Source: Ziziphus jujuba (lineage: Eukaryota > Streptophyta > Magnoliopsida > Rosales > Rhamnaceae). Taken from it: a stretch of DNA of 64,000 bases. Shown here in pieces: positions 1 through 61,618 of this stretch. The stretch is from NCBI RefSeq assembly GCF_031755915.1, contig NC_083383.1, forward strand, positions 26,576,501 to 26,640,500, given 5' to 3'. Numbering within the stretch: the first letter of the stretch is position 1; every line of letters starts with the position of its first letter. The notes under the pieces are model-generated. The model searched no databases, was not told the origin of the DNA, and saw only the letters and a list, made by a program, of their open reading frames with translations. The translations under genes were made by a program, and so were the position numbers.

Positions 1-639
1 TTACCAAAGGCTTAAAATTTCTTAGGTGTAATTGGCTACTTATAGATTGCTTTAGATATTGATTGAAATGGGCTCGCATATTTCAGAAAGCCATTATTAT
101 TACAGAAACTATACCTAAAGTTTGCTTGGCTCCTGAAATTCACCTGCCCACTTCAACCAATATCTCAAAATCTCTAATCTGCTATTCATATCTGTAAAAG
201 CTTTCAAATAATATTTTAAACATTTTGAAATTGTTCAAGAGAGTTTGATAGAAAATATTGGGAAAAAAATAGAATACTTTATATAATATGATATTAGGAA
301 AAATGATCACTTGTAATATAGGCTCTGAATTAAGTTACAAAGGATAATATAAGAATAAACAAAAGGTTAATCTAGAAAAGCAAATTAGCGGACATAAAAT
401 AACAATTTTTTACACTTAACAGACCAAATTTAATTTTCAGGTGGTTAGTCTTGTAAGTTCGGCCTTAAGCTTCCCAAATGCTTATTGCTTTTACAAGCAA
501 TGAAATCATGATTAACTTGTTAGATTTTTGAATGTATTTGTCTGTTAGAATAAATATCAGCTGGTTGTCACAGCTATTCTTTCTTAAATCTGTCTAAAAT
601 ATACATATTTCAATAATATGGTTGTGGAATTTTTGACAG

Positions 640-11604: not shown

Positions 11605-12639
11605 TGAGATGATCTTCAAAATTGAGTTCTATTGGATCTTTACAATTACTAGATGATTGTTTTGGAACTAATTTTGTTATCAATATGATCTCACTTGAAA
11701 TTGAAGGATGAAATAATTGTTAGTGGAAAGTTGAGTACAGAAAATCCCCATGGAATGCAAGTGTCACTGGTAGAAATGGAATTATGATAACCCCAGTGGA
11801 AACTATGGTTCAGGTCTCATGCTCATATGAGACGAAAACAATGTTCTGGAAGTCTAGAGAGACATTGACTGGCCACATATGTGTGTCTTGTATTGTAGCT
11901 GTGGTCTAAAGCACTGGAGCTGAAGGGAATAGCAAAGTTTGGCTATGGCCTTGGACTCCAGAAATTTGTCATATTGAGTGCTCAAGTGAGATTGGATTGG
12001 CTAGCAGTTTGGGATGATTGATGAAGAAACCAGAATAAAGAATTTGATATACTAAAGGTATGTATAAAAATTTTACTTCTGTGGAATGGTTATTTAGTTT
12101 ACAAACATAAAGAACAAAATAAGTTACATTGGCCAGTGTGATTAGTTTAGAAGTACTTGCTTTAGGAGATACAAAGACTTGAAAGAATCATATTTTTGTT
12201 CACCAAAGAATATACAAATAGAGAACAAACACCAATCCAGCAGGTGCCCTGCCTGCCGCTCACTATTAGTCCATAAACATTAACAACAACAAAAAAGTGA
12301 TGGGGTGAGGGGTTATTCAAGGGATTCTGTTCTTACTAACATTTTCATTAAGCATTTGACATATTGCAAAAGATTTAACAGTAAAAATAAAGGGCAAAAT
12401 ACATACGACTTTAGTCCTTGCTTGACCATGAGCTAAAAAATGGTATTATGATGTGAATCTATTAGAAGTCAGAAATAGTAATATAAACTGAATAAAATAA
12501 TTGCAGGATGAAAAATAGAAATTGCAATGACCTTCAATAGATAAGCTGAAATTTGTACAATAGAAGTAGTAAAAAAATTATATTAAAATTGTACACTTTT
12601 GAAAGTAAGATTATAAAATAAAAACTATAATTATAAAAT
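11605..12639. other. Non-coding DNA downstream of the PPR sequence
   Basis: No coding or repeat structure recognised. The first few hundred bases may be the PPR 3' UTR. Around 12610-12640 the sequence turns into the AT-rich inner border of a Harbinger 3' end (ATTATAAAATAATCCAATCC), as seen near 36460 in element 2. Confidence 0.4.
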
Positions 12640-13032
12640 AATCCAATCCAATCCGATCCTGCACCAAACATTGGACAACTAGTCCAACATTCAGTCCAGA
12701 GCTATACCAAACACAGTACTGCACTATTCGATCCTGTCCGATCCTGTCCGATCTGAACCTATCATGTCCGATCCTGTTCGATCCGGACCTATCCTGCATA
12801 CCAAATGCCTTAGTGTCAAAGTCCCCTTTATGGGTAGCTATTTAAACTTTAAAGGGGGCATTTGGTACGCCGGATAGGTCCGAATTGGACAGGATCAGAC
12901 ATGATCGGATAAGATTGGACAGGATAATTAGTGCAATACTATGTTTGGCATAGTTCCAGACTGAATGATGGACTAATTGTACCATGTTTGGTGCGGAATC
13001 GGACTGGATATGACTATTTTGTAATTATATTT
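12640..13032. repeat. Head-to-head inverted pair of Harbinger 3' subterminal regions
   Basis: Bases 12640-12812 (+ orientation, 3' end of element X) and 12854-13032 (- orientation, 3' end of element 1) are inverted copies of about 175 bases, separated by about 41 bases of target repeat. Both contain several copies of a decamer like TCCTGTCCGA or its complement, plus paired phrases GGAC..CTAGTCC and CATTCAGTC(C/T). Such clustered subterminal motifs are the expected binding sites for the Harbinger Myb-like protein or transposase. Confidence 0.75.
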
Positions 13033-13545
13033 TTAATTTAAAAAAAATAAAAATTTTAAAAGTTAAATTTATATGAAAAAAAAATTATTACATCTAATTA
13101 AAGTTGTACATTTATATATTTATATATTTATATATACATGCAAAATATACAAAATTTGTTGTATACACCCACAAATAATATTAATATATAACTTTAGAAA
13201 TAGCTTAAAATTAACTTAAAACATAGTATGCCATAAATAACAATTAATTAAAAATAAATATATTTTAATGGTATGCATAAGACAATTGAATATTTTTTCA
13301 ACCCATAAATTACATAAATATATTGTTTCCAAAACCAATAAAAATAAAATTTTAGTATGGTAAATCATAAATAACAATTATTCACAAATAAAGAAATAAT
13401 TAACAGTATATGTAATTAAGAACTTGTTGATAATATAAGAATATCCATATCCAAATTATACGTATATGTATATAAATTTCACATGTAGCAATTCAAATAA
13501 CAAGTACTACATAAATATAAATATATTGGATTTTACAAGGATAAT

Positions 13546-13863
13546 TTACTTATAAAACAAATAAGTAAATACACTTGTTGATAGCAATCCAAATAAAAAA
13601 CCTACTATAAAACCATTACGCCATTCATTGTTCAATTGAGCATGTGTATGTGCGGTGGTATTTCGTATTAGATTTGCGTCATTATGATTCCGCATCCGTT
13701 GTTCTACATACTCAACATATGCAATTTTAGCTTCTTGGGTTGTATTATATGCTTGATATAAATTATCTCTAAATCCTTGCACTTGTTGATGACATTCAGG
13801 CCAAGAATTATATATCCCTGGTTCTCTACCTTTAAACACAACATAAACTCTTCTCTTTGCCAT
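13546..13863 (-). CDS. Harbinger third ORF: RNase H1-N/viroplasmin-like domain plus C-terminal membrane helix (105 aa)
   Basis: An open frame of 105 codons, 252 bases downstream of the Myb-gene stop and on the same strand. Residues about 5-50 (RRVYVVFKGREPGIY, NSWPECHQQVQGF, then an EAKIAY helix) fit the small Cauli_VI domain found at the N-terminus of RNase H1 and in caulimovirus viroplasmin. The Trp of the SW motif, which stacks on nucleic acid in human RNase H1, is kept (W21), but the FKKF lysine pair corresponds to YQAY. Residues 51-84 are polar and Asn-rich. Residues 85-104 (GFIVGFLFGLLSTSVFTYLF) form one hydrophobic helix ending in Lys, like a tail anchor. A potential splice acceptor (ATATGCAG|GAA) lies 9 bases before the ATG and is conserved in element 2, so the ORF may be the last exon of a spliced transcript. 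Function unknown; RNA or RNA:DNA binding at a membrane is inference only. Confidence 0.8.
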   Translation of the reverse strand: MAKRRVYVVFKGREPGIYNSWPECHQQVQGFRDNLYQAYNTTQEAKIAYVEYVEQRMRNHNDANLIRNTTAHTHAQLNNEWRNGFIVGFLFGLLSTSVFTYLFYK

Positions 13864-14115
13864 TTAATATTCCTGCATATAAGAATACATTATAATATAA
13901 TATAGTAATACAATTAAAAAATCAATAAATCAACTCAATCACGCGCATATGAATATTCTAAAACATAACACATAATCATAAAATTATCCTTACATGCAAA
14001 TTTAGAAACAAACATCCACCACCATACAACAAGTTCATAAGTTTCAAACCTAATTGTTCATAATTATCATCCTCCCATACATAAACAGAAATATGTAGTC
14101 CACTACTTTACTAAA

Positions 14116-15071
14116 TTAGTTATTCAAAAAGTCACGAGCATATGCAATCTTCCCCGCATCCATTTTAATAACCTTAAAAACCTCTATATTCGATGGATCC
14201 GATCTCATTACCTTAGAGATTTTGAGGTTATCACTGGCCTCAAATCCTAACCTGTCAAGCTCCATAGCTAAATATTGTGGATAATAAGCCTCGGATTTTT
14301 CCAACTTTGCAGCCAATTTATCAAATAATTTCTCTGCTGCATTGCCTAACCCGGCTACAATGTCATCGTCCTTCGATCTAGATTTTCGTTTACCTCTTGT
14401 TTGGACTTGTGTATATGGTTCACTACCTCCTCGATTCACAGACATTGGAGAATCGACATTATCAATTGGTTCATTTGCAGTGTCCAGATTTATTTCATTT
14501 ATCATATCAATTGGAGTTTGTGCTCCATGTCCGGTTGTCCGATCCTTCCCAAAAATATTAGCAAGCTTCTTATAAATAGGAAAAGATTTTCCTCTCCAAC
14601 CTTTTGTACTTGGGGCACTCTAAAATACAAAAAGCCAACGTTTAGCGAAGAAAAATTAAATGCTAGATAACAAACTAAAATTGAAATTAACATATATTTT
14701 CAAATAATATTCAAAACCTGCACATATGCTTGCCAAACTTCTTCACTGTCAACCTCCACACATTTAAGAGAGTCATTCCATCCAAATCCACTTTTGTTCA
14801 GCATGTCATATATTATACCATATTGCTTCTTCCACTTTCTCATCTTTGACTCAATATGTGGATTGGCTCGCAGTCTCGAATTAGGACACAGATCAGATAG
14901 TCGCCTCTCAATCATAGTAAGTGTGCCAGGCTTAAATGACCCTGTATCACAACATTGCCCACTAGCTACAGCTTCATCTAAGATAATCAGTAAAGCTTCT
15001 TCCACTCGTTGAGTCCATGTACGCCTAGAGTCACCACCCCTATTATCGTTACTGCTACCTCCAGCTTCCAT
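14116..15071 (-). CDS. Harbinger Myb/SANT-like accessory protein (285 aa)
   Basis: Two exons, 14718-15071 and 14116-14619, in phase with a GT-AG intron, give 285 residues with no stop. Residues about 19-112 form the trihelix-type Myb/SANT-like domain (Myb_DNA-bind_3): TWTQRVEEALLIILDEAV, SFKPGTLTMIERRL, KWKKQYGIIYDML, GFGWND. This is the usual second protein of plant PIF/Harbinger elements, which binds the element ends and brings the transposase into the nucleus. Residues about 119-285 hold WRGKSFPIYKKLANIFGKDR, a nuclear-localisation-like GKRKSRSK, and a C-terminal helical part (AAEKLFDKLAAKLEKSE). Unlike the transposase next to it, this gene has no visible lesion. The start was chosen as the first ATG before the Gly/Ser/Asn-rich leader and TWTQ; the matching position in element 2 is also ATG. 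Confidence 0.88.
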
Positions 15072-15247
15072 TGCTATTTATGTAAAAATTCCATGATTCC
15101 AAAAATACCATAAAAATATGAATTTAATAACAAATAATAAAAATCTCATACGTTATATTTAATATAATGTAGTCTTCATACAAAAGATGCAACAAACACC
15201 ATAAAATTAAACAGTTACAAAATTATATAAATCATAACAATCAACTA

Positions 15248-16576
15248 TTAACCACGACGACTTCTCCATTCATCAAACATATGCCTAGCTAACTCATTTC
15301 TCCAATTAGTCCATTGATCCGAAGAACCAATTGATCCAATAATATCTTCATCCCCACTTATGTCAGCATCGTTACTCATATCAAACTCAGCTTCTCCAGG
15401 ATCAAGTGCCATTTCTCTCCTAATAAGATTATGTATCAAACAACATGCAGTAATTATCTTAATTTGGGTTGAAATTGGATAGAACGATGGACTTCTTAAA
15501 ATTGCCTATCGCATTTTTAGAACCCCAAAACATCTTTCTATTATATTTCTAGCAGATGCATGCTTCATATTGAAATACTCTTCATGATTTGCAGGTGCAC
15601 AACCATCTCTCCATTCAGAAAGATGATATTTTGTTCCCCTATATGGTGCAAGAAATCCTTCACCATTAGTGTAACCAGCATCCACTAAATAATAATAACC
15701 TAACACAGAAAAATGGCTCCTATTAGATAACGTAATGTTAGTCCACTACAATATAAACTTTAAGAATTGCTCTTACCGGTGGGTACTTTTAATCCATTTG
15801 GCCTACTTAATGCATCTCGAAGTACTCTTGAGTCTGAAGCGGAACCTTCCATATTTGGGTTACATACACCTAAGACATTTGTGGTTATCTCACCCTTCCT
15901 GGTTCGATATCTCGGCTTATCGATTTCGGGTACATTAACCTTAATATAAGTTCCATCTAATGCTCCCAAACAATTCTAGGTCACAAACAAAATTAGTTAC
16001 ATAAGATATTGCCACATATATCTACGAATTAAATAAAGTAACCAAATTAATTGATTAACATACCTTAAATATTTTCCATTTATCATCCGAATAATTATCT
16101 GACACAGGTTCAGGATGCCTCAACAATGTCCCATGTAAACATAACACTCCATTCAACACTGAATTGAAATATCTACTGACTGTTTCCCCCGATCTATTGA
16201 ATCTAGTGATAATTGTACGGTTCTTTGTATGATGAGCAATTATATGCAAAAATATGCACACTTGCTCTTCCAATGTAACAGTACCATCTCTTTTAACATA
16301 TCCATCATGGCGTAATAACTGACATAAAATACCAAATGTTCTCCTATCCATCCTAAGTTGACTAATACAGTTAACATCATTGTCCAACAAACTAGTTACA
16401 AAAGACGAACGCAACTCTGCAGTCCTATTTATTCGATTCCTAACACCTCTATCATTTCTCAATCGCATTGCTACATACATGTACATAAACCCGACAACTA
16501 TAAAGCATGTACAAAAATATTCTAATGCCTTATCATTTGGAAGCATCAATAATGCAGCTAATTTTCTTCTATCCAT
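15248..16576 (-). pseudogene. PIF/Harbinger DDE transposase (DDE_Tnp_4), one nonsense codon and a short deletion
   Basis: Three exons on the minus strand (16064-16576, 15777-15975, 15248-15699), in phase, 387 codons. The N-terminal helix-turn-helix-like part has RMDRRTFGILCQLL and EQVCIFLHIIAHH. The catalytic DDE residues are all present: D in [11 protein letters not shown] in YYLVDAGYTNGEG, E in NIIERCFGVLK. Two lesions are visible. TAG at 15506-15508 replaces the Trp codon of the KxRW motif (element 2 keeps TGG there). The segment between CNPNM and [10 protein letters not shown] lacks about 9 residues that the family normally has (the LPGW region). The TAG is one G-to-A change from TGG and could be recent. 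The start ATG (MDRRKL) corresponds to MERRKV in element 2; the open frame extends upstream but is a poly-Phe run. Confidence 0.9.
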
Positions 16577-16841
16577 ATTCACTACAAAAAAGAAAAAATA
16601 AAAAAAACAATAAAAACAAAACAAACATAACATTTTAATGTACAAAAAAATTATAATTTACAAAAATATATCTTGGATGAAAATTAGTAAGACTTCTAAT
16701 AATTATAGTAAAAGTAATAATCCCGAGTACAACTAAATATTCAAATAAATATATTACATTAATCAAAATGACAGATGAACATTAATCAAAGAACTAATAA
16801 ATTTTTTTTAATTTTTGGCTAAAAAAAATAATCCCCATTTC

Positions 16842-20287: not shown

Positions 20288-21255
20288 GAGGGTAACAATA
20301 AATCTATGAGAGCATCTCATGCGTTTTGATGGGCACGATCTTCACAATGAGACAGGCATAAAGCATACTAGTATTCAAAACACATATGCAATCATAATAG
20401 GAGTATAGGTTTCAAGAAGGAAGAAAAAATTTAAGAACTCATGTTTTAAACAAAAGGATGACGATATTATTAGTTTTCTGATAATAAAAAACAAAGGAAA
20501 CCTCTCCTTATGAAGACTGAGAAGGAGGAAAATGACAAACTAGCCTAACGTAGAGGAATATGCTTTTACGACCCATAAATACATCACTAAACTGAGGAAT
20601 TTGCTTTTACAACTCATACACACATTATTAAGCTGAGGAATTTGCTTTGTACGTAAAACATTTTAACAAAAGAATGAGTACCAAAGCTATTCTGTGACAG
20701 GGATAAGATGTAATTGGTGTAATTTTCAGAGTCAATGGAGGAATCATATAGATTGGCCCACCAAGGTTTGGTAGGTGATTCTTACATATGAGGAAGCGAG
20801 TCAATCTCTATATTATGAGGGTAAGTCATTTGGATTTGTTCATGTTCTTATGAATCCTAAGAATCTTGGAAAGCATTTAGAAAATCTTGTTCCATGGAGA
20901 TCTCCATTGGTGTGAGATCTAGTTGTGGAATTGTTAGAAGACTTGAAACTCTTGAAACAACCTTTTCATCTGACATGTCACCAGCTTGTGTGGTAATTAT
21001 ATCATCTTAAGGAGGATTATAGTTGTTAAGTTTGTAAACAAACTTCGCTAATGCTGCCTTGATTGTATATGAAGTGTCTCAAAAAGTTGTGTTCCATTCA
21101 AAAGCAGTATTTTGGGACCAAAATAGGTTTGGCAATGTGGTTACAGAAATATGGCATGTTTACCATGAAAATGGATGTGACCTTTTGAGCATATTCTATA
21201 TAAATTTTCCAAAAGTTATTTTCCCCTATTATCCTTCGACATGTTTTATCCAATA
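20288..21255. repeat. Copy of the repeat module also at 37292-38430, split by Harbinger insertions
   Basis: The reverse complement of this stretch aligns through most of its length with about 37430-38320, including the CATAAGG/TATAAGG box, AAATCTTGTTCCATGGA, and the coding-like stretch WDQNR..NVV.EIW.VY.ENG (plus strand at 21108-21180). The module's continuation lies on the other side of element 1 (12813-12852) and probably left of 9459. It abuts pararetroviral DNA at about 21256. I could not assign the coding-like frame to a known protein. Confidence 0.6.
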
Positions 21256-21387
21256 GGAAATATTTTATCCTTTGGCACAAATAAAGAGAAGTTCTTATTG
21301 AAGTTCCTTGTAGTTTAGAGGTACTTTTTAGGACAATGAATATAATTTCGGCATTTGTACAAAAGCATTGAACTGGTTATGGAATTT

Positions 21388-21491
21388 AAATCCTTTGGGA
21401 AGGATTTATAGCTTTCTTGCTTCGGAACATACATCCATATTTAAATCCTTTGGGAAGGATTTATAGTTTTCTTGCTTGGGAACATACATCC
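21388..21491. repeat. 52-bp tandem duplication inside pararetrovirus copy A
   Basis: ATTTAAATCCTTTGGGAAGG and the following 30 bases, through CTTGCTT(C/G)GGAACATACATCCA, occur twice back to back with two or three differences. Copy B has a single version near 27850-27900. Confidence 0.85.
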
Positions 21492-21929
21492 ATCCCAACA
21501 AGGATGTCTTTCATTAGAAGTCAAAAACCTAGAACCTTTGTCCATATAATATAGTTAAAAAAGAACTTGACTTTAATTAGGGTTTAGTAGTAAAGTCTGA
21601 CCTTATCCTCTGCACCTTGAAACTATTCCTTATGAGGAACCCAAAATTGTTTCGAAAGAATATTTGGATTCATCATGGTTTTGTGGGCCCTGTGTCCATA
21701 TACACAATGACTTCAATTAGTGTTGCATATTTTTTGTAGGACTTGCATTTAGACCTTTGGTGTTGGTATCATACTCATGCTGAATGCTTTCTTAATAGAT
21801 CTATCTTTTACTAGTGTAGCCATGAATGTAACAAGCTCTTCTTCTTCTTTCCTTGTGTATTCTATGATGGCAAAAATAGTATCCTCATCTTACTCACTAT
21901 GTTATGAGAATACTAATTCTAGGTCTACT

Positions 21930-22620
21930 TGTTGTTTGTACATATCTACTTCATCAATCTATAATTGCTTCAGAAGATTAACTACTTTCTTCTTTTTGTT
22001 AGGACATTTTCTAGCATAATGTCTTTTTAGGACACAAAGAAAAAAGCAATTTGTCTTTTGTATGCCTTTTTTGAATTTCTTTCTGAAGTACCTTAATTTT
22101 TTCTTTTTCCCAAATTGATATTTCCTTGGTGTACCTTAAAAATGCTACTCTTTCTTCCTTTTGCCATCACAATTATTCTTACATATTGATTTGTACAGAG
22201 GTTGCCTTTTCATCAAATTTTTGGAAGTAATGGTGTTGCTCCCATAGCTTATCAAAAGTGGTTAATGTCATTTTGTGGATTTTGCATAACGTAATTTGTG
22301 ACATTTTTATCTTTGCAACAGATATGGATACCATGAGATAGCTGAGGTTTTCTGGGCCAAGGAACTACCTTGGTTATGCATATTAAATTCAACACCTTCA
22401 TCTTTTCATCTTCCGACAGTATAATTACCACAAGTTTTATTTGGTTCGGAGTTTGGTGTGTTGTTGAGGATTATGCAATTATGAGTTGAGATGTAAGCTT
22501 GTTCTATTTCTGGGTTGGTATCATATGATGTAGAATTAGAGTAATTTGTTGTTGATTCAATATTCGATTCTGATGAACTTGCTAGGGTCATAATGGTCAC
22601 CTGATGGGTTATAGCCAGGG
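21930..22620 (-). pseudogene. Pararetroviral coat-protein-like relic with zinc knuckle (copy A)
   Basis: The minus-strand frame around 22110-21960 reads a basic stretch followed by a Cys/His cluster (C-x3-C…HYARKCPN) and then KKKK, the arrangement of the caulimovirid coat protein C-terminus. The spacing deviates from the normal C-x2-C-x4-H-x4-C. The matching site in copy B is at 27256-27300. The frame is interrupted and cannot give a full protein. Confidence 0.6.
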
Positions 22621-23464
22621 TTGGCAGAGGACAGGTAGGTGATGAAGGTTCTAGAGATTTTGGGGGAATAGTTTTGGCAGTGATGTTGAAATGGAGGAAG
22701 AAGGGATCGATTTGGATGGATTTAATGGTAAAGACTTCTTGAAAATTTCATGAGTTATCTTGAAAACAATAGAGAAATGTGTAGGACTGAAAAATGAAAA
22801 ATTGTTTGGCCCTTGAAGATCATCATCTATCTACTTGAGTCTACAATTCGGATCCCTAATCTTCTTTTCTTTGGCTGAGAATTCTTATTCAAAAGTCTTT
22901 TGACCAATTATTGTTTTAAGCCATTGATTTAGAGTTGTAATTGAAGAGATAAGCCTGTTCTTTAGTTATTGTATCTCTTGAGAGAGTTCCTTAATTCTAG
23001 CATCAATAAATGTCACCTGTGTGACCACCTTTTCTAATTTATTATCAATTCATCGAAGGATTGAATTTCGAGCTTTGGCATTCATAGTTTGCTAATTTAA
23101 AACTGCATCAGATTAAGCGATGGGAGATGGGATCTCATCGGCTTGGATTTTTCTTAGTTGAATGAAATGTCTGAATGGCACATTGTATGTAGGATGCTCT
23201 TACCTTTTCAAGGTTGAAAATTCTTCATCATAAGCTTGGGATGAAGAAGAAAAATCAAGCATTGATTGGGTTGAGGTACACGAAACCCTTCTGCTTTAGG
23301 ATTAACAATCTTTTTCTATAAGTAGGTGGAGATTTGGAGATTTGGCAAGTCCAACCCAGGAGAATCTGGATAATCTTAAGAGTATGGACTTCTTGGCTTA
23401 TAAAGGCTATGACTTTTTCTTTTTGGAGAGTCTTGATGGTAGCTACATTTATTTTTGCACATCT

Positions 23465-24450
23465 TTAGAGCAACATCCCATAAGAAATGCCCTTTTTAAT
23501 GGCTGATGTAAACATTTTTCCCATTAGATTCAAAGTATTTGACAGGGAGCTGATTTGAAGAGGAATCTGAATAGTAGTCTGTCTGAATTGGGCTGACGAC
23601 CATTGTCTAAAACAAAGTAGATACTGAATTTTGCAAAAAGGATTTAGGCTTATTAAAATTGGTTTTAATAAATCCATCTTTTCTAGATAAATGTTGAATC
23701 CATGATTATTAAGGGTTGCTTGCTGATAAAGCTTTTCATAATTGGTGATCCATGCGAGAGTTATTATTTTCTCAAAGTCTTGCATAGAGATCCTTATAGG
23801 AAATTGTGTTATACACGCTCCTTTTTCACTATTTGTGTTGACAAAGATAGGATCCAAAGATAATTCTGGGATCTTAAGATTTACAGCATAGTTTTGAAGT
23901 CTATACATCAACTGGAATTGAAGAATTGAAGCATATGTGTTTGAAATCTAGTCTGCACTTGAGAGCTACAATTGAATCTTCAAAAGGTTTGAAAGATTAA
24001 TGTCGTTCGTAGGGATATTGAAGATGAGATAAAAAGTGATAACGATATTTTCTGGATTTAGAGTAGATAAGATAGCTCCAATTATAACATGCTCATAGTG
24101 AACAAAGGTATGGTTTAAAAGAGCAATCCTTAGTGTGATACGAAGATCAAGTCTGCCATGTAAGGAGAGAACTATCTTTACAGCCTAAAAATGGATATGG
24201 GTATATCCTTTATTTACCCAACTAGAAATTAGTTGCTGAGGTATATGTAGATTAATGTATTGCTTTTGGAAAGAAGCATGGATAAGGTGATTGTCCATTT
24301 TTGAAGATTGGACATATTCCTTAATGAAATCAGTCAGAAACTTGATTAAGGTTTTAAGAACTTTGAAAGCAAACTGTTTCTTTTAGAAGATCCCATAAAG
24401 ATTGAGAGAGATATAGTAGTAGGTGAAAATATATAGAATAGTGGTCCCTA
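23465..24450 (-). pseudogene. Pararetroviral movement-protein-like relic (copy A)
   Basis: The longest intact stretch of copy A (23465-23911, 148 codons, with MYRLQNYAVNLKIP). Upstream, at about 24260-23920, the frame reads GYTHIHF and ALLNHTFVHYEH, which fit the caulimovirid movement-protein core, but it is broken by stops (TAG after HIHF, TAG and TAG near LSSAD). The order movement, then coat, then RT matches Caulimoviridae. Confidence 0.65.
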
Positions 24451-24789
24451 TTGCTAGAAATAAATTTTCTTAAATAAAGGAGAAGATTGCTCGATCTATT
24501 TTTATGTTGCATTCTCCGAACATTATGTTCTTGGATTAATGATTAGTTTCTATACTTTTACTAATATGAATAGAGAAGAAATGATAGGCTCATTACATTA
24601 GAAAAAGCTAGGGAGCTTCCCCCATACATTTGGGCTCATATTAATATTCTACCAGATAATCTAATTTTTTGGAACTTAAACGAGGTAAACAAATACGATG
24701 AGGTTCTTGGTTATCCATGGAGATATTCTTCCTTACTCAACATCACTATATTATAAAATAAGAAAACTTACTAGGATATTTAGATTAGT

Positions 24790-25340
24790 CCTTATAAAAG
24801 ATCTTAGTCTTCTAAATCTTTTAAATATTCAATTCCAACTCTTAGGTGCAGACCAGATCTCGAGTGCGTATGTCGAACCTCTTTAATACTGGTTAGCGTA
24901 TAGACTCCAAAATCATATGGTAAATCTCAAAATCTTAGGATTGTCTTCTAATCCTCTTTTTATCAACATTGGTTGTGAAGGAGTGTGTATAACATAATTT
25001 TCTAGAAGAATTTCTAGAGAAGACTTCAAGAAACTAATACCTTTCACATGGATCACTAATTATGAGAAGCTTCATAAGCAGGCCAAACCCTTCGTAACTA
25101 TAAGTCCAACACTTGTCAAAGGATGAAACGGATTTTTTGAAACCAATTTTTATAAGCCTAGATCCACTTCTCAAAATTCAGTGTCCATTTTGTTCTAGAT
25201 AATGGTATTCAACCCAATTCATATAGACTATTATTCAGATTCCTCTTCAAAATAACTCCCCATCAAATATTAGCGTGATGGAAAAAATGTTTACATCAGT
25301 CATTATAAAAGATATTTCTAATGGGACATTACTTTAAAGA
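24790..25340 (+). pseudogene. Pararetroviral movement-protein-like relic (copy B)
   Basis: Parallel to copy A: LNLLNIQFQLLGADQIS, then a broken frame matching RLQNHMVNLKILGL and EKLHKQA. It is interrupted by stops and small indels. Confidence 0.55.
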
Positions 25341-26199
25341 TGTGCAAAAACAAATGTAGTTGTCATCAAGACTTTCGAAAATGGAGAAATTGTAACCCTT
25401 GCAAGCCAATAAGGTCATACTTTGCAGATGATCAAGATTCTCCATGGATTGGACCACGCTAAACCTTCTAACCTCCACGTACTTATATGAAAGGATTGCA
25501 AATCTTAAAGCATAAAGGTCTTGTGAACCTCAACCCAATCAATACATGATATTTTTTTCTTCATCCCAAGATTATGATGAAGAACTTCCAGTCTTGGAAA
25601 GGTAAGAGCATCTTATATACAAGGTGCAATCCAAACTTTTCATTCAACTAAGAGAGATCCAAGTCAATGGGATCCCATCTCCTATCTTTTAGACTGATGA
25701 AGTTCTAACCTGGCAAACTATAAATACCAAATTTAAAATTAAAACTTCCGACAAACTGATACTAAATTGGAATAGGTGGTCACACAGGTAGCATTAATTG
25801 ATGCCAAAATTGAGGGAATTTCTAGAAAGATACAATAATTGTGGGACATGTTTATCTTTTCAGTTATAATTATTGATCCATATCTTAGGATAATAATAGC
25901 TCAAAAGACATTTGAAAGCCAAAGAAAAAGAGATGAAGATCTCGAAAGAGATTAAGGATTTGAAAGCCAAACTTAAGCATATAGATGACGATCTCGAAAG
26001 GCCATTAAATTCTTCATTTTCAATCCTTTAATTCCTCCATCTCGCTATAGATTTCTCTACTGTTTTCAAGATAACTTATGAAATTTGCAATAAATCTTTA
26101 CCACAATATCCATCCAAATTGACCATTTCTTTCTTCACTTAAGCACCACAGCTAAAAGTGTTCCGCTAAAAATCTTCAGAATCATTGTCACCTACTAAT

Positions 26200-27340
26200 C
26201 CTTCGTTAACCCTGGCTATAACCTATCAGATGACAACTATGGCCCTGGAAAGTTCATCAAAATCCAATACTGAATCAATAACAAATTACTTTGACTCCAG
26301 ATCAGATGATACTAACTTAAAGATGGAACAAGTAAACATCATGACTTTCATGATGATGTAATCTGTCACGACACACAAAACTCCTAACCAAACAGAACCT
26401 GTGATCTCTAAACCATTGAAAGATGAAAAAAATGAAGGTGTTGGATCTAATATACACAATCAAGGTGATTCCTTCATCCATAAAACCTTGGTTGGCCTGT
26501 TGTTCACTTTCAATGACTTTTATCCTTTTTTATGGAAGAATAAGATGCATAAATTTGAAGTTTGGATCAACAACCAAATAAACAGTCCTAGTGCAACTTT
26601 AGTTCAAGTTTTGACAAAATTCGTATCTAGATTCACTAGCTCTCTAAGGGAATGGTTTCAAAAGCTGGGTGAATATTGCCAATCCAGTTCATTCAAGTTC
26701 CAAATGCTAGTGACGCATTAAGGACTATATACATAGAGTTTATAGAAGATAACAATCTTCTAGCAGCATAGACACAACATGAATTTTCCACAATGAAATA
26801 TTATTCTCTTAAAACAAAGGATATTGAAAGCCATTAAAAAAGGATATGAACAAGATATTACATGATCAATGGCACCAATGATCCGAATCTCAGGCAGATT
26901 TATATAACTTTTCTTCCAGAAGAGTTACAACTTAAAATTCAAAGACCCATATCTGTTACAAAGATGCAAATATCATAAATTATGCCAGATCAAATCTACC
27001 AAATGGCATTAATTGCTCTTGATAAGTTGTGTAAGTAACAACATTACTTCTAAAATTTGAAAAGGCAACCTCTATACAAATCGGTTTGCAAAAGATAAGA
27101 ATTACACATTGAATGCCCCTAGGATAATTGTGATGGCAAAGGCGAGGAGTATCATTTCCAAGATACACCAAGGAAATATCAATTTGAGAAAAAGAAAAAA
27201 ATTTAGGTACTTTGGAAAGAAATCCAAAAAAGGTATACAAAAGATAGATGGCTAATTTGTTGTGGTCTGAGAGGACACTATGCTACAAGATGTCCTAATA
27301 GAAAGAAGAAAGCTTTGATCTTCTGGAGTAGCTACAGATT
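26200..27340 (+). pseudogene. Pararetroviral coat-protein-like relic with zinc knuckle (copy B)
   Basis: A 106-codon open piece (26401-26721) is followed by broken frames. A basic KK-rich region leads into CCGLRGHYATRCPNRKK at about 27256-27306, a degraded CCHC knuckle. The first Cys of the canonical C-x2-C is not in place. Confidence 0.6.
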
Positions 27341-27663
27341 GATGAAGCAGACATGCATAAACAATAAGTAGAGCTAGAATCATTATTCTCAAAACAGAGT
27401 GAGTAAAATGAGGATACTATTTTTTCCATCATAAAGGACATAGGCAATGAAGAAGAAGAGGTTTGTCACATTCATAGCTACACTAGTAAAAAATATATCT
27501 ATTTAGAAAGCATTCAGCATGAGTATGATACCTACACCAAATGTCCAATTGCAAGTCCTGACAAAAAAATATGCAATATGAATTAAAGTTATTACATTTA
27601 TGGACATAAGAGCCCATAAAACCATGATGAATCCAGGCATTATTTTGAAACAATTTTGAGTTC

Positions 27664-27737
27664 CTCAAATGAATGGTTTAAAGCTACAGATGATAATGAA
27701 CTCAAATGAATGGTTTAAAGCTACAGATGATAAGCTC
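27664..27737. repeat. 37-bp tandem duplication in copy B
   Basis: CTCAAATGAATGGTTTAAAG and the next 14 bases occur at 27664 and again at 27701 with no visible difference over about 34 bases. Confidence 0.9.
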
Positions 27738-27849
27738 TTTGCTACAGGCTTGATTCGTAAACACCCAATTGGAATCAAATTCATTCTTAAATGTGTTATA
27801 CAGACAAGGGTTTTAGGCACTTGATTTCTAGACAAAGAAATCCTCATTG

Positions 27850-28790
27850 TGATGGATGTATACTCTCGTAGCTTTCCTAAAGGATTTAAGTTCCATAATT
27901 ATTTCAAAGCCTTTGTACAGATGCCAAAATTATATTTATTATCCCAAAAGGCACCCCCAAATTACAAGGAACTTTAATAAAAACTCCTCTCCATTTGTGT
28001 TGAGGATCATGCTTGCTTTAAACATCCTCATCCCCATGGAAAAATGAGACATTCTTTATTCATCTACCTTTCAAGCTCAATGATGATGCCAACCCTACAA
28101 GAGCCTCCTATCCATGGATGGCCCATTCAGATTTAGTCTTGCTAGAAAGGAATGCTTTATACTTCTCAAACATGGATTAATCAAGCTAACGAGATCAGAT
28201 TAAGCTTGCCAGGTTTCCTATGTGGAAGAAAAGAAAAGATTAGTCATTGATTACAAACCACTGATTCAATTTCTTAAAGATGACAAATTCTTCTACCCAA
28301 AATTAATTCTTTATTTTTCCATCTCTATCAAGCCCATGTATTTTCAAAATTTGATCTAAAAATAAGTTTCTAACAAATTAGGATTCATTCCTTAGACAGT
28401 CATAAAATGGAATTCTGCAATTTCTATGTCCAATACTAATGGATTATCCTCCATTTTCTGCGAAAAGTAGCCCCTTTCAAAAGGCTTTGACTAGCATATT
28501 TAAGCCTATTCTCCAGAGTGCTTTCATTTGTAAAGATGATATCTTGCTCTTCTTGGAAACCCATGAAGCTTATAGAACATTATAAGTATAATTTTATGAG
28601 TTTGTCCAAAAGCATAGGATCATGTTATTTGAAAGAAAAAGTAGATTAGCCAAGTCCTGGATCGACTTTCTAGGAATGCTTTTCAACCAAGGAAGCTATA
28701 AACTGGGACCACATGTCACTGAAGAATTATTGTCTTTTCTTGACTCCGATTTATTAGTAAAGTAGATTTTATGATTTTATAGTTACTTAG
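27850..28790 (+). pseudogene. Pararetroviral protease/reverse transcriptase relic
   Basis: RT motifs survive in several frames: KRLVIDYKPL (about 28236), FSKFDLK (about 28339), and KDDILLF at about 28534-28554, where the catalytic YIDD/YVDD box has lost its aromatic residue. The frame is broken repeatedly, so no enzyme can be made. Confidence 0.75.
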
Positions 28791-32331: not shown

Positions 32332-33042
32332 TGGATGTTCTATTTTCTGGCCGTACCGAATGTTCATGTTATTGCTTGATTTGGTTTTTATATTTTTGAG
32401 ATAATATTGTCCTCTTAATTCGAGTGTTGAAGCCACTTTATTAGTTTCGGTCATGAGGCATACACGTCTGTTTGGTTTTATCTTATCTCTCTTGGCAAAA
32501 TATACATGATTTAGTTGAATAATTTAATGTCTTCAACCAAAACAAACTCTTTTTTGCAAAGTATCTGGACATACTAATATGTTGACCTAATATAACTAAT
32601 TCCATGTTTTCTAAAAGTTCCCCTCTCACACATAATCAAACACAGTTTTCTGTACTGACTTGATCCACTTTATTGAAATGAGGTTATGAAATTGAAATAA
32701 ATCTATTTAAAAAATGTAATAAAAAAAAGAATATAAAATACGTATTAAATTTAACAATAACAAAATATATATTTGATTAAAAATGAACAAATGTTAAAAA
32801 AAAATAATAAGTTGAACATAAATTAAATAAATATTAAATAAATATTTTTTATGTTAATTTTAATTCTACCACATTGCCATAATCAAATAAACAAAAAAGT
32901 ACATTAATGATTCTGTTTCTTTATCTTTTCTTAGTCCCAGAGATAATTTTTCCTATTTCATCCAAAATAAATTATGTATGTTAAATTTAATGTGCTTTCT
33001 ATTTATTTGTTCTATTTTTTATTTTGTTTTTTTGTAGTACAT

Positions 33043-34352
33043 ATGGAGCGAAGAAAAGTCACTGCATTCTTTTTGCTTCTAAATGATTCACAATTAGAGT
33101 CTTTTTGTACGGCTTTTATGTTGCTTTTGCTTATGTATATGTACTGCACATATATAAGGCAACATGTTAGAGGTTACAGGAATCAATTACCTAGGAATGC
33201 AGAATTGCGTATGTCTTTTCTAAATAGTCTATTAGATAACTGATGTTAATTGTATTAGTCAGCTTAGGATGGTTAGGAGAACATTTGATACTTTGTGTTA
33301 GTTATTACAAGAGGATGGATATGTTAAAAGTGATGGCATTGTTATATTGGAAGAGCAAGTGTGTATATTTTTGCACATAATTGCTCATCATACAAAAAGC
33401 CGTACAATTATCATTAGATTTTTTAGATCGGGAGAGACGATAAGTTGATATTTCAATTACGTGTTGCATGGAGTACTGCGCTTACGTAAGATTTTGTTGA
33501 GACATCCAGAACCTGTATCAGATACTTGTTTAAATGATAGATGGAAAGTATTTAAGATATGTTTATGGAATAGCTTGGTTATTAATATTATAGTTCAATT
33601 ATTTGTAACATTATCTGATGTTTGTAACTTTGTTAATGACGAAGAATTGTTTGGGAGCTTAAATGGAACTTATATTAAGGTGAATGTACCAGAAATCGAT
33701 AAGCTAAGATATCGAACAAGAAATGGTGAGATTGTATTACCTGTTGGGAAGGTTCCACTTCGGATTTAAGAGTACTCCGAGATGCATTAAATAGGCAAAA
33801 TGGGTTAAAAGTACCAACTAGTAAGACTAATTCTCAAATTTTACATTGTAGTAGCCAACATTGCATATACTAATAGGATATATGTTTTTGCTTTTTCAGT
33901 TTGTTATTACTTAGTGCATACTGGATACACTAATGGTGAAGGGTTTCTTGCAACATATAGAGGAATAAGATATCACCTTTCTGAGTGGAGAGAAGGTTGT
34001 GCACCCATAAATCATGAAGAGTATTTAAACATGAAGCATGTATCTACTAGGAATGTCATAGAAAGATGCTTTAGGGTTCTTAAAAAGCGGTGGACAATTT
34101 TAAGAAGTCCATCTTTCTATCCTATTGCAACACAAATCAAGATCATTACCGCTTGTTGCCTTATATATAATCTTATTAGAAGAGAAATGATAATTGATCC
34201 TGGGAAAGTTGAGTTTGATAGGAGTGAAGATGTTGACATTAGTACCGAGGATGACATTATAGGATCGATTTCTTCCTCGGACCAATGGACTCACTGGAGA
34301 GATGATTTAGCTAAGTAAATATTTAATGAGTGGAGAGGTTGTTGTGGTCATT
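33043..34352 (+). pseudogene. PIF/Harbinger transposase relic of element 2
   Basis: Parallel to 15248-16576 in three exons (33043-33556, 33645-33820, from about 33903). Visible breaks: a one-base insertion at about 33241 (GATAACTGATG), TAG and TGA replacing Gln and Arg codons near 33298 and 33446, the first donor changed from GT to AT at 33557, loss of the segment between RNGEI and VLP, and one missing G just after it (about 33750). The first catalytic Asp is Asn (GSLNGTYIKV) and the second is His (YYLVHTGYTNGEG); the Glu in NVIERCF is kept. The KxRW Trp is intact here. Several stops are C-to-T type (CAA/CAG to TAA/TAG, CGA to TGA), as expected for methylated, silenced transposon DNA. Confidence 0.9.
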
Positions 34353-34540
34353 AGTGGTCGATTGTTGTCCTTAATGCTCTTGTAACTGTTTTATTTTACA
34401 CTGTTTGTTAAACATCTTGGATCATTTGTATGAAAACCAATTTATATTTTGTGCCATTGTTGTTATCCGTGAATGATTTTTGCTTACTTGCTTGCTGTTA
34501 TTATATTGTTGAAATTATAAAAATTTGTATTTCGATAGCA

Positions 34541-35463
34541 ATGGAAGTTAGAGGTAGCAGTCACGATATCCGTGGGTTGAATCTACACGTACATGGATTA
34601 AAGGGGAGGAAGATGCTTTGCTGCTTATTTTAGATGAGGTTGTAGCTAGTAGGCAGTGGTATGACACAGGATCATTCAAGCCTAGCACAATTAATATGAT
34701 TGAAAGGCGATTGTCTGAGATATGTCCTAATTCAGGGTTGCGAGCAATCCACACATTGAGTCAAAGATGAAAAAGTGGAAGAAACAATACGGTGTAATAT
34801 ATGATATGCTAAACAAAAGTGCTTCGAATGGAATGACTCTCTTAAATATGTGGAAGTTGATAGTGACGAAGTTTTGAAAGCATATGTGCAAGTTTTGAAA
34901 CTTTGGATATCTTCTTTCATTGAATTTTTTAACTTGATATATGAAGTTATGTTTTTCTATCCTTTATAATTAAAAGTTTATTTTTTTTATTTTAGAGTAA
35001 TCCAAGTGCAAAGGCATGGAGAGGTAAACCGTTTCCGATGTATGAGAAGCTTACTAATATTTTTGGACAGGATCGGGCAACAGGACATGGAGCACAAACT
35101 CCGATTGATATGGTTAATGATTTGAATTTGGAAAGTGGAAATGAACAATTTAATGATGTGTGTTCTCCAATGTCTGTGAATGAAATACATAGTGAACCTT
35201 CCACCCGACCCAAATCAAGAGGTAAGAGAAAATTTGGATTGAAGGATGATGACATTGTAAGCGGGTTTGGCAATGTAGCAGAGAAATTGTTTGATAAATT
35301 GGCTGCAAAGTTAGATAAATCTGAAGCCAATTATCCACAATACTTAGCTATGGAGCTTGACAGGTTAGGCTTCTCTGTTGATTGCAATCTTGAAATCTCT
35401 AAGGTAATGAGAAAATTATTAGAACGGATACGGGCAAGATTGAATTTGATAGAAAATTTTTAA
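34541..35463 (+). pseudogene. Myb/SANT-like accessory gene relic of element 2
   Basis: Exon 1 (34541-34891) starts with MEVRGSSHD, matching element 1's MEAGGSSND. It shifts frame soon after (about 34577), after which TRTWIKGEEDALLLILDEVV can be read. Further one-base losses lie near 34745 and 34825. The CAA|GT donor and the TTTTAG|AGT acceptor (34996) of the intron are kept. Exon 2 stays open from 34996 (ending 35463), but its last part is shortened and frame-shifted after SKVMR. No functional protein expected. Confidence 0.88.
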
Positions 35464-35763
35464 ATTACTAAGTATCGTTGTGGATCATATATTTAAGACT
35501 ATGTATGAGGGGATGATAATTATGAACACTTGGATTTGAATTTTATGGACATATGTTGTGTGTTTATGGATATATGTGGTATGGTAATGGATGTTGGTAT
35601 CTAATTATGCATGTAAAGATACTTTTATAAAGCATGTATTATGTTTTAGTGTATTAATATGCACTTGATTGATTTAGTTAATTGTTATTTTGTTTGGTTA
35701 TATTATTATATTATTATATTATTATATTATGTTATCATTTATTATAATATGCAGGAACATTGA

Positions 35764-36081
35764 ATGGCAAGGAGAAGAATTTATGTTGTGTTTAATGTTA
35801 GACAACCAATGATATATAATTCTTGGTCTGAATGTCATCAATAAGTGTAAGAATTTAAGGATAATTTATATCAAGCCTATAATACAACTGAAGAAGCTGA
35901 AATAGCATATGCTGAGTATGTAGAACAAATTATGAGGAATCTAAATGAGGTAAATCCAATACAAAATATCACCACATATACACGTGCCAACTTGAACAAT
36001 GATTGGCGTAATGGTTTTATAATCGGCTATTTGTTTGGATTACTATCAATGGGTGTATTTACCTATTTGGCATATAAGTAG
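35764..36081 (+). pseudogene. Third ORF of element 2 (homologue of 13546-13863), two nonsense codons, no indels
   Basis: ATG at 35764 to TAG at 36079-36081 is 318 bases, exactly the length of the element 1 copy. About two thirds of residues are identical by eye. YNTTEEAEIAYAEYVEQ and NNDWRNGFIIGYLFGLLS are kept, as is the C-terminal hydrophobic helix ending TYLAYK. Codons 27 and 29 are TAA where element 1 has Gln codons (CAA/CAG), C-to-T type changes. The GIY of the Cauli_VI-like domain reads MIY. ATATGCAG|GAAC just before the ATG repeats the acceptor-like sequence of element 1. Confidence 0.85.
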
Positions 36082-36597
36082 ATTATCGGTGTAAAATCAA
36101 ATATATACATTTGTATGCGGACAAGTATGTGAAATCATAGTTATCAACAAGTTCTTAATTAAATATGATGTTAACTTTATTTATTTGTATATATGATTTA
36201 ACATATTATAATATCATTTTAATTGGTTTTGAAAATCATGTATTAACGTAATTTGTGGGTGTAAAAAAAAATTACAATTACAAAATTTCATTAATTTTCA
36301 TTTATTTTTAAATTATAAATTAATATAGTTTGTGGATGTAAAAAATTAAATTTTATATGTAAATACAAATATATTAATTTACAATATTAATTAAGTATAT
36401 ATATTATTTTTATTGTAATTAGAAATAGAATTTAAAAATTTTTCACTTAAAAAAAATAAAAAAAATTATAAAATAGTCCAATCCGACACCAAACATAGAA
36501 CAACTAGTCCACCATTCAGTCCGGAACTATACCAAACACAAGACTGCATTATTCTAGTCTGTCCAATCCGAACCTGTTCTGTGTACCAAACACACCC

Positions 36598-37291
36598 TTA
36601 GGATTTCATTTGAGAAATTTTTTCATTGAAACCCCTTCTTCTTTTTCTTCCTTCCACACCCATGTCTATTCTCTTTCATTCCTCACCTTTTTTCACTTCT
36701 CACATGCTCTTTCAAATCCAAAACCCCTTCTTTTTATTTTTTTTCTTCTTCTTCCAAATCACCACTCTCAGTAACACCAACAATTTCAAAGCTATAAGGG
36801 AATGAAGTTCTCTCTCTCTTCTTTCTCCGTATTTGTCTTCTTCTTCTTCTTTTTTTGGTGTACTCTCTCTTTCTCTAACTCTCTTTGTCTCTTTCTCTGT
36901 CTTCTTTTTTTTTTTGGTGGTGTCTCTCTTTCTCCGTAACTCTCTCTGTCTCTCTTTATCTCTGCTCTTTCTCTGTCTTCTTTTTATTTTTATTTTTTAG
37001 ATACTCTCTTTTTCTCTGTTAATCTCTCTGTCTGTCTCTGTCTCTGTCTCTCCTCTTTGTTTATCTCTTTTTTTTTTTTTTTTTTGTACTCTCTCTTTCT
37101 CTGTAACTCTCTCTATCTATCTCCTCTCTCAAACTTATATTTTAGGAGCTCCATTTTAGCAATGGATCAAAGCTTTTTTCTCCTTAATTTTTTTCCTCCA
37201 CATTTCCTGAATTCCAAACAAAGCCCCAAAATTATAAAATTATCTGACCTTCCCTCATTTGAAGAGCACGTGTGAGACACTGATCATTTCA
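36598..37291. repeat. Pyrimidine-rich spacer with degenerate CT minisatellite
   Basis: From about 36800 to 37130 the plus strand repeats phrases like CTCTCTTTCTCTGTAACTCTCTCTGTCTCT with TTCTTTTTTTTT spacers, roughly every 60-70 bases. It lies between element 2 and the 37292 repeat module. No coding content; the Phe/Leu/Ser ORF at 37057 is a by-product. Confidence 0.6.
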
Positions 37292-38430
37292 TTATGCATT
37301 TTTAACAGAAGCACCAACGGTGCAAGTAAAAAGGAAATTTGGGATGCGAAATGTCAAAAAACAAAATTTATGGTGCAATGTGTCAATTTTGATAAAGTTT
37401 GGGATGCTTGGCTGCCAATATACCAAATATAATAAAGAAAATAACCTTTTCAAAATATTTATAGAAGATGCTCTATTTTCATTATAAACAGGCCATATTT
37501 CTACAGCCACATTATCAATCTGTTTTGGTCCCAAAATATCGTTTTTGAATCGACCACAACTTTTGAGACTTTTTCTTCTACAGTCAAAGTAGCATTAGTT
37601 AAGTTTAGTTAAGTTTGTTTGCGAGCTTAACAACTATGATCCTCCTTCCTAGGATGATATAATTACTATAAAAGTTGCTGACATACCAAATGAAAGGGCT
37701 GTTCTAAGAGTTCCAAATCTTCTTATAATTCCACAACCAATGGAAGTTTCCATGGAACAAGATTTTCTATATGCTTTCCAAAATTCTCAGGACCTATATA
37801 AACATGAATAGATCCAAGTGACTCACCATCGTGATATAGAGATAGATTCACTTCCGTAGATGCAAGAATCACCTACCAACCTTGATGGCCAATCTATATG
37901 AATCCTCCATCGACTCTAAAGATAACACCAATTACAATTTTGTCCCTGTCATAGAATAGCTTTGGTACTTGTTCTCTTGTACAAAATGTTTTTATGTATA
38001 AAGTAGATTCCTTTGCTTAGTAATGTGTGTACAAGTTGTATAAGTAGATTCCTTTACTTTAGGCTGATTTGCTATTTTCCTCTTCCTTAGTCTTTATAAG
38101 GAAAGGTTTCCTTTATTTTCGATCATCAGAAAATTAATAATGTTTTAAACCTTCCAACATGAGTTTTCAAAATTTCTTTCTTCTCGATAGCCTATACCCT
38201 TATTATCATCTCATATGTGCTTTGAATGCTAGTTCTAGCCTACTTTATTATAAGGATCTTGCCTATCAAAAAGCACATAAAACTCTCCTAGATCTGCTGT
38301 TACATTCATATAGTTTAAATGGCTAACCATAAAGGTGGCTTTGAAACAAGGGAATGCCTTGGTCATAAGTTGGTTTGTCATTTCACTTTGAAAAGAGGGC
38401 AGGAGTGGCTACTTGCCCAAATAATAATAA
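37292..38430. repeat. Uninterrupted copy of the repeat module that hosts two Harbinger insertions elsewhere
   Basis: Aligns in reverse complement with 20288-21255, then with 12813-12852 (about 38318-38355) and with about 9430-9458 (about 38370-38400), so it shows the target before insertion of element 1 and of unit X. 37292-37420 also has an inverted partner at 29789-29915. A minus-strand coding-like stretch (IDNVAVEIWPVYNENR, about 37526-37480) matches the one at 21108-21180. TCTTTATAAGG at about 38090-38100 looks like a TATA box. It occurs beside pararetroviral DNA, so it may be part of that element or just its old neighbour. Confidence 0.6.
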
Positions 38431-59700: not shown

Positions 59701-61618
59701 ATATGCATTTGACAAATACACTCATATCCATTGTGACATCAACTAAAGAGGTATGAAACTATAATTATGGACACTATATTTCCCATGATGAGAGTATGAG
59801 TATGATTTATGGACCACTTATGCACATCCCCCTCCATCAACATGATTATAAAACATCCTTTACAACAACTTCATGCTTAAATCCTACATGCATCTGGCTG
59901 TCAAAATAATATTCAAGGTGCCCTCAATCTCCATAAGCAAGCAGCAAATTATAGAGAAAAATAATTAGCAAAAAAATTCCCCGATCATACTAAAATTGCC
60001 TTCGTCATTGCTAACCTACTAATTGAATTGGTATAACATAATACAGAAACTATATTACCTGAATGATGCTACAGGAATGCCCAGAAAACATACGATTGTA
60101 TGTTTCTATCTTTCTTAGAACCTCAGCAACATCATGGTTATCACGCTGTCTTACTGATGTCTCACTTGGAACCAAAAGAGTAATTTGACGACGACACAAG
60201 GGACATTTACATGGCTGAAGTGCTGAACCATGTTGCCAAACAAGCATAATACAATTTCCTGAGTAAAGGCACAAAGGATGCATTATTTGGCAGCTTGGAC
60301 AAAAATTCAGAAAATCAGTAAACAAATTTAGAAAATATGTGATGAGATACACTATTTATATGTTCGTCTAAAGTAACATGATAAGGATAAAAATGCAAAA
60401 CTGCCATCATTATACTCCTACAATGCTATATCTGATCCTTTATCCTCAAAGCTCAAACTACAAGTGTGAGCAGAAGAGAGAATAAAATGCAAACTATGAA
60501 ATTTACCAGCCGCCAGTCACATTGTTGCATTGCAAAAGATAAGGACAAACTCATAATTCAAAACTGTTTCGACATCCAGGTACGTGAAAACCAAACTTAT
60601 CCAAGGCAGCAACTGACTAAAACGTTGTTATTAATTTACCACATATATATACTAGTACTAGCATATAACATTTTCTAACACAATTATAGCTGGGAAGTTA
60701 GTCATACTTTAAGGCCTTGACAATAGATAGCGTCTTTATAGTTAAAAGTCCACCTCAAAAAAGCCTTGAAGTGGAAGTCAATCATATAATTACCCCTTTT
60801 TTTTAACTAAAAGGGTAGGTATTATACTTTGCTTGACTTTAAGGTCCCTAAAATTATGCTCAGGATTGAAGAGGCCATTGAGAAAATTGCTCAGAAGGAA
60901 AGGCAGCGTAGAAGGTTGAAACAACCAGTTCATTTTGGTAACTATTGAAACAAAAAACTTGATGAAACATATAAATGAGATATCATACTAATAACTCATT
61001 CCAAGAGACATCGCAAGAAAATTACTTATATTTCCAGATAGAGCATACGCTAACCACAGCATTTTATCCTTTATGGACATTTTGAAGCAAAATAGTTCTC
61101 CAAATCTCCATTCAGCAACAATTATAGGACTAGCAACAGTCTTGTAAAAACCCCAAAAATCCACCTCCAACTCAATTTTCTTTCAAAACCCAAAATTGGT
61201 CCCAAAAAAAAAAAAAAAAAAATGTAACAGCAAAAACCAGCAACTTAAAATTTTGCACTATTGAACAAAGATTATCAGATAGCAGTTTCAAAAACCCATC
61301 TAGTATATTTACCCAAAAAAAAAAAAAAAAAAGATCTAGCATTCATAAGTAGTAAAGCAATGGCATCAAAGAACCAAACCAACCAAACGAATCTTTCTAA
61401 TCAGTTTCAACTATGCCTTTAAAGCTCCGATTTTTCCAAGAAGGGTCGGTTTTGATTTAAAGTTCCATATAAAAATGCATACAAGAATCGAAATCAAACA
61501 GAGAGAGAGAAAGAGAGAAACCGCAAAACCAGTGAGAGCAATTGGCCTGACAGGGGACGTTGAAGTCATCATGGCAGACCGTACAGCAATCGTTCTCCGG
61601 AGGTCCGTCCGTCCCCAT
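56771..61618 (-). CDS. RNF170-like RING-HC E3 ubiquitin ligase, 190 aa
   Basis: Five exons: 61522-61618, 60059-60258, 58701-58802, 56995-57046 and 56771-56892 (stop TAA), all in phase, 190 residues. An N-terminal C3HC4 RING (C12, C15, C27, H29, C32, C35, C51, C54: CCTVCHDDF, ANCSHWFCGNC, PCKCPLC) is followed by QRMQDLPFLLRRLWREL and a C-terminal DUF1232 region with two hydrophobic helices (SLVYVLSPVDIIPEG and GIVGLLDDFLIVLIFFFHIA), ending YRHGGSSQT. Human RNF170 is an ER-membrane E3 that acts on IP3 receptors; the plant substrate is unknown. The start ATG (MGTDGPPEND) is the first in frame near the RING; the frame continues a short way upstream without ATG. The exon 3 donor GCA|GTTAAG is unusual but gives the only in-phase join. 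Gene intact. Confidence 0.93.
59604..59777. repeat. 87-bp tandem duplication in an RNF170-like gene intron
   Basis: TTAAACACTAATATGCATTT at 59604 recurs as TTAAACACAAATATGCATTT at 59691. The two 87-base units differ at only about four places. It lies in the intron between exons 2 and 3. Confidence 0.92.

Follow-up and report, generated by a model that had tools for sequence, protein, structure and literature searches.

PIF/Harbinger DNA transposons are described, in the accessible parts of four reports, as mostly or only two-gene elements (PMC4482050, PMC2213677, PMC2836001, PMC9179366). The text available for Medicago MtPH-A6 gives a DDE transposase gene with two introns, followed in one direction by a Myb/SANT-type gene (PMC2213677). 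For Ping/Pong in yeast, the available part of the report states that the activity of the native proteins was very poor and that an export-signal mutant did better (PMC2836001). Additional genes are on record in the Harbinger superfamily: according to an excerpted source, HarbingerS carries a SET methyltransferase and PHISTA a TET/JBP dioxygenase (PMC12730594). The same source also mentions Vandal elements, which carry a gene regulating their own silencing. None of the titles and abstracts among the matches listed in our literature search, which lie mostly outside subscription papers and outside Repbase Reports, reports a third Harbinger gene with a Cauli_VI domain.

Two PIF/Harbinger elements with a third gene

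The window, a stretch of 64,000 nucleotides of Ziziphus jujuba (contig NC_083383.1, positions 26,576,501 to 26,640,500), contains two elements on opposite strands that resemble MtPH-A6 in having a two-intron DDE transposase gene followed in the same direction by a Myb/SANT-type gene (Table 1). Two features of PIF/Harbinger elements, a DDE_Tnp_4-type transposase and a Myb/SANT-like second protein, were detected by Pfam. Unlike Ping/Pong and MtPH-A6, however, these elements carry a third gene, ORF3, after the Myb gene. The preliminary description had reported this third ORF in the same place and orientation in both elements, intact in the first and interrupted by two nonsense codons but no indel in the second, and each of these points is borne out.

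Table 1. Features of the two elements in the window.
Feature	Position	Strand	Remarks
ORF3 of element 1 (P0001)	13546..13863	minus	105 aa, ATG to TAA
RNase H1 N-terminal / hybrid-binding-like domain of ORF3	13714..13851	minus	residues 5-50
C-terminal hydrophobic helix of ORF3, with GxxxGxxxG	13555..13614	minus	hydropathy and predicted helix
Possible leader intron of ORF3	13873..13993	minus	GTAAGG ... TATATGCAG; inferred
Myb/SANT gene of element 1	14116..15071	minus	Myb_DNA-bind_3 E 2.1e-9, first part
DDE transposase gene of element 1	15250..16576	minus	three exons by inspection
3' terminal inverted repeat region of element 1	12854..12913	minus	GGGGGCATTTGGTA...
ORF3 of element 2	35764..36081	plus	same frame, nonsense codons 27 and 29, no indel
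Degraded Myb/SANT gene of element 2	34541..35470	plus	
Degraded DDE transposase gene of element 2	33043..34318	plus	DDE_Tnp_4 E 5.6e-7 for 34031-34318
3' end of element 2	36573..36600	plus	TIR ends 36597, then TTA

The genes of element 1 run in one direction in the order transposase, Myb/SANT, ORF3, the last lying between the Myb/SANT gene and a Harbinger-type terminal repeat. Inspection of splice signals places the transposase exons at 16576-16064, 15975-15777 and 15699-about 15250, with one in-frame stop in exon 3. DDE_Tnp_4 matches the exon 3 piece (E 4.1e-7) and, below the curated cut-off, the exon 2 piece (E 0.0019); the exon 1 ORF had no family match in the Pfam search, nor did the second part of the Myb/SANT gene, which by inspection has one intron at about 14620-14717.

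Only a 3' terminal inverted repeat (TIR) was found in each element, and no 5' TIR in either. That of element 2 conforms to the pattern G(N)5GTT, with TTA after it, whereas that of element 1 has no exact fit and is bordered by TTTAAA, with no clean TWA; a TTA thus adjoins the 3' TIR in element 2 only. Element 1 (12913-16635, minus) aligns with element 2 (32983-36568, plus) at 74% identity. Since the match ends no more than about 60 bases from where the 3' TIRs terminate, the two copies look like separate insertions.

Several further repeats were observed. At 12611-12809, approximately 45 bases from the 3' end of element 1, the 3' terminal region of the element recurs in inverted and partly diverged form; this copy terminates in ACCAAATGCC, then TTA, and forms with the element end a near-palindrome (12611-13043, 76%). 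Harbinger-like terminal sequences at 9459, 20284 (minus) and 30005 are probably the ends of other elements or MITEs; the search pattern was modelled on 30005, which hence has 0 mismatches, with 3 at 9459 and 2 at 20284, and it matched nothing in 100 shuffles. A large imperfect inverted repeat spans 21276-28000 (22345-24000 against 26488-24804, 74%; 21603-22327 against 27696-26947, 78%), and near element 2 a second pair, 20292-21223 and 37437-38303, is 73% identical over 950 columns. In addition, 29792-29981 matches 37425-37237, and 59604-59776 is an 86-base tandem duplication with 96.5% identity.

ORF3 encodes an RNase H1-N-like domain and a likely tail anchor

A Pfam search matched residues 6-46 of the ORF3 product to Cauli_VI (PF01693) with an E value of 1.2e-15 and 57.9 bits, against a curated cut-off of 21 bits. 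The protein also matches the PDB entries for the RNase H1 domain of yeast (1qhk, E 4.3e-9) and human (3bsu, 0.0021), and its predicted fold agrees with the beta-beta-alpha-beta-alpha arrangement of 3BSU. The homology proposed in the preliminary description is therefore supported, and the absence of a significant score, the first outcome that it named as refuting, did not arise. Also supported is the C-terminal hydrophobic helix, which hydropathy places at residues 84-103 (best window 85-103), two residues before the end of the protein. By hydropathy there is one hydrophobic segment near the C-terminus and none at the N-terminus, the pattern of a tail-anchored protein. No catalytic RNase H domain was found in ORF3: the frame stops after the anchor, Cauli_VI is the sole Pfam model to pass, and the NCBIfam RNase H model aligns over positions 1-70 of 211 only, with 65 of the 320 bits required.

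A GT...AG pair upstream of the start codon is common to both copies (13993-13873; 35613-35754), which suggests that the 5' leader of ORF3 contains an intron. Downstream, a 20-base exact match between the copies (13413-13432, minus, and 36142-36161, plus) stands amid diverged AT-rich DNA.

Comparison of the two copies

The ORF3 copies are identical at 267 of 318 bases, with 51 differences and no gap; both stops in element 2 are CAA to TAA changes, at Q27 and Q29. At 84.0%, ORF3 identity can be set beside that of the transposase exons (77.7, 84.4 and 82.2%) and the Myb exons (83.6 and 79.5%). Transposase intron 1 (60.5%), the Myb intron (59.3%) and the transposase-Myb spacer (64.6%) are lower; the surroundings of transposase intron 2 stand at 74.7%, the Myb-ORF3 spacer at 78.7%, the 3' flank at 75.1% and the TIR region at 74.3%. 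From these segment identities ORF3 resembles the coding sequence of the element in its conservation, although the adjoining non-coding DNA is also fairly well kept.

The preliminary description read long-lasting selection from the two copies, a reading that these by themselves do not support. Pairwise dN/dS for ORF3 is 0.71 (bootstrap 0.39-1.41; Nei-Gojobori, one pair of copies). In the same pair the three transposase exons give 0.45, 0.32 and 0.30, and the Myb gene 0.27 and 0.47 in its two parts. Any codon that is a stop in one or other copy was excluded from these values, as were those that a gap touches (transposase exons 1, 9 and 0; Myb parts 5 and 10). A dN/dS near 1, an outcome named in the preliminary description as refuting, lies within the bootstrap range for ORF3, with the point estimate below it. 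By region, dN/dS is 0.93 (0.30-4.31) for residues 1-50, 1.25 (0.45-4.82) for residues 51-80 and 0.29 (0.07-0.84) for the anchor, residues 81-105, and the changes are evenly spread over the codon positions (16, 16, 18). The evidence for constraint is thus weaker for ORF3 than for the transposase exons or Myb parts, and two copies alone do not allow selection to be read.

The absence of indels had been contrasted with several in the element's other genes. In one MAFFT alignment, a gap-free ORF3 is unexpected if gaps occur as often as in the non-coding parts (24 gaps in 1174 aligned bases; 6.5 expected, P about 0.0015). With the frequency seen in the other genes it is not (9 gaps in 1994; 1.44 expected, P about 0.24), and transposase exon 3 is likewise free of indels. 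Of the 31 residue differences between the ORF3 copies, two of which are stops, 14 seem to have arisen in element 1 and 16 in element 2, with 1 left undecided. Among the relatives, 50 positions have a conservation of at least 80%; element 1 deviates at 11 of them and element 2 at 8. Given these departures, and the stop in transposase exon 3 of element 1, neither ORF3-bearing copy need be functional now.

Relatives of ORF3 share a domain, a variable linker and an anchor

Searches of a protein collection returned 2 proteins at E up to 0.001, 6 at 0.01 and 13 at 0.1, so that the protein is conserved beyond the window. We aligned ORF3 (P0001) with 11 of the 13 relatives, leaving out P0013, which has another architecture and aligns by its domain alone, and P0014, a 51-residue anchor half that was counted for GxxxG and hydropathy only. 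Six of the 11 relatives (P0002, P0004, P0005, P0006, P0008 and P0009) are full-length, with 106-115 residues and 44-78% identity. The contigs that carry the relatives are short, the longest of 1709 bases. Cauli_VI matched 10 of the 12 aligned members; the two without a match are presumably P0010 and P0011, whose sequence begins within the domain.

At the level of sequence the family has a common plan of domain, variable linker and C-terminal anchor. The domain is more conserved than the linker in 6/6 pairs compared, and the anchor in 5/6, the exception being P0001-P0002 (anchor 17/24, linker 22/30); between P0001 and P0004, for instance, identity is 31/46 in the domain, 6/30 in the linker and 10/24 in the anchor. 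A hydrophobic 19-mer was present in all ten sequences that reach the anchor (mean hydropathy 1.56-2.92; 1.85 in the element 2 copy), and GxxxG in 11/11 including element 2, with the third glycine of GxxxGxxxG retained in 6 of 9 aligned members. Within the domain, the equivalent of human W43 is kept in 9/10 and the F58 position is an aromatic Y in 12/12. The lysine pair of human RNase H1, correctly said earlier to be replaced in ORF3, is replaced across the family, with K59 kept in 1/12 and K60 in 0/12. A gene in a MAG labelled Saccharicrinis (L001:10001-10156 and on), which looks on inspection like an RNase H carrying this N-terminal domain, has K-G at the lysine-pair position.

Frame, length and the pattern of conservation by domain are all preserved in full-length relatives of 44-52% identity, so an ORF3-type protein is functional somewhere. 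The main support for function comes from frames that stay intact at below 50% identity, with the two ends retained and the linker free to vary, which is the mark of protein-level selection.

Possible function of ORF3

ORF3 looks like a real helper gene of the transposon, and we infer that it belongs to a whole PIF/Harbinger lineage, not merely to these two copies. In our preferred reading, to which we give a probability of about 0.45, it is the third gene of that lineage and encodes a tail-anchored duplex binder that shields element RNA from silencing. The protein would expose its hybrid-binding-like N-terminal domain, on the variable linker, toward the cytosol or nucleoplasm, while its single C-terminal glycine-zipper helix would insert into the ER or nuclear envelope. 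The helices may self-associate through GxxxG and pack into patches, and the conserved aromatic face may bind A-form duplexes (dsRNA or RNA:DNA) involving transcripts of the element itself. The most likely role of such a multivalent membrane patch would be to keep element RNA or duplexes from the silencing machinery, so that the element persists. Since better studied Harbinger elements manage with two proteins, ORF3 is probably dispensable for cut-and-paste chemistry, and we favour protection from silencing over a role in chemistry because the two Ping/Pong proteins suffice in plants and, weakly, in yeast. That a Harbinger lineage encodes a membrane-anchored, self-associating binder of duplex RNA or hybrids that sequesters element RNA at the ER or nuclear envelope is, taken as a whole, a doubtful proposition; if true, a DNA transposon would possess an anti-silencing device acting via membranes, not chromatin.

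The protein could instead serve transposition itself, as a nuclear-envelope anchor for the transposase-Myb-DNA complex or for R-loops. It might, for instance, help in target-site choice or hold excised DNA near repair, and its domain would have switched from hybrids to protein or B-form DNA. That both lysines are lost and the aromatic face is kept agrees with such a change of ligand, and ORF3 accompanies transposase and Myb in both copies. However, nothing in the data points to nuclear-envelope targeting, and in the accessible text Ping/Pong ORF1 and transposase are enough in rice, Arabidopsis and, weakly, yeast (PMC2836001), which makes this reading rather unlikely.

We regard as similarly improbable that ORF3 is a functionless hitch-hiker, derived by capture of a host gene for a membrane protein that contains an RNase H1-N domain. 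Transposons do take up such domains, as the part of the report available shows for capE (pfam01693) of the fungal Helitron HELPO1.3 (PMC4289320), the pairwise dN/dS is compatible with 1, and relatives P0004-P0009 could be host genes. Against capture, ORF3 has persisted in both copies with a DNA identity like that of transposase and Myb, and the constancy of the full-length relatives described above argues the same way. A decayed RNase H1 fragment or a chance ORF without product would accommodate the stops in element 2 ORF3 and in the element 1 transposase, but is very improbable given the strength of the Cauli_VI match, and is largely contradicted by a family of short proteins with their own C-terminal anchor and with no catalytic RNase H domain found in any of the 12 members scanned.

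Comparison with known systems

The hybrid-binding domain of RNase H1 (human 3BSU, yeast 1QHK) is like ORF3 in sequence match, predicted fold and aromatic positions. ORF3 differs in that it is transposon-encoded, has no catalytic domain, has K59/K60 replaced and is fused to a likely membrane anchor. Caulimovirus P6/TAV (viroplasmin) has the Pfam domain in common with ORF3, a likeness by description, but has 520 residues in several domains and resides in cytosol and nucleus, and the available part of the source names no tail anchor of the ORF3 kind for it (PMC7102451). The capE protein resembles ORF3 as a PF01693 protein on a DNA transposon; its carrier is a fungal Helitron, and in the accessible text it is described as a captured gene (PMC4289320).

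A conserved third protein combining a nucleic-acid-binding fold with a membrane anchor would bring a membrane aspect to DNA-transposon biology, and small unnamed Cauli_VI proteins would gain a likely origin and a testable role. As far as the excerpted source goes, the elements described here share with HarbingerS and PHISTA the presence of an extra gene in a DNA transposon of the same superfamily. Those elements have oomycete or fungal hosts, their extra genes encode chromatin- or DNA-modifying enzymes, and the third proteins of the TET-bearing families have no Myb/SANT domain; the ORF3 product, in contrast, is non-enzymatic and hybrid-binding-like, with an anchor. Extra genes in Harbinger were thus already known; one that joins a Cauli_VI domain to an anchor appears to be new, judged by the titles and abstracts among the matches listed.
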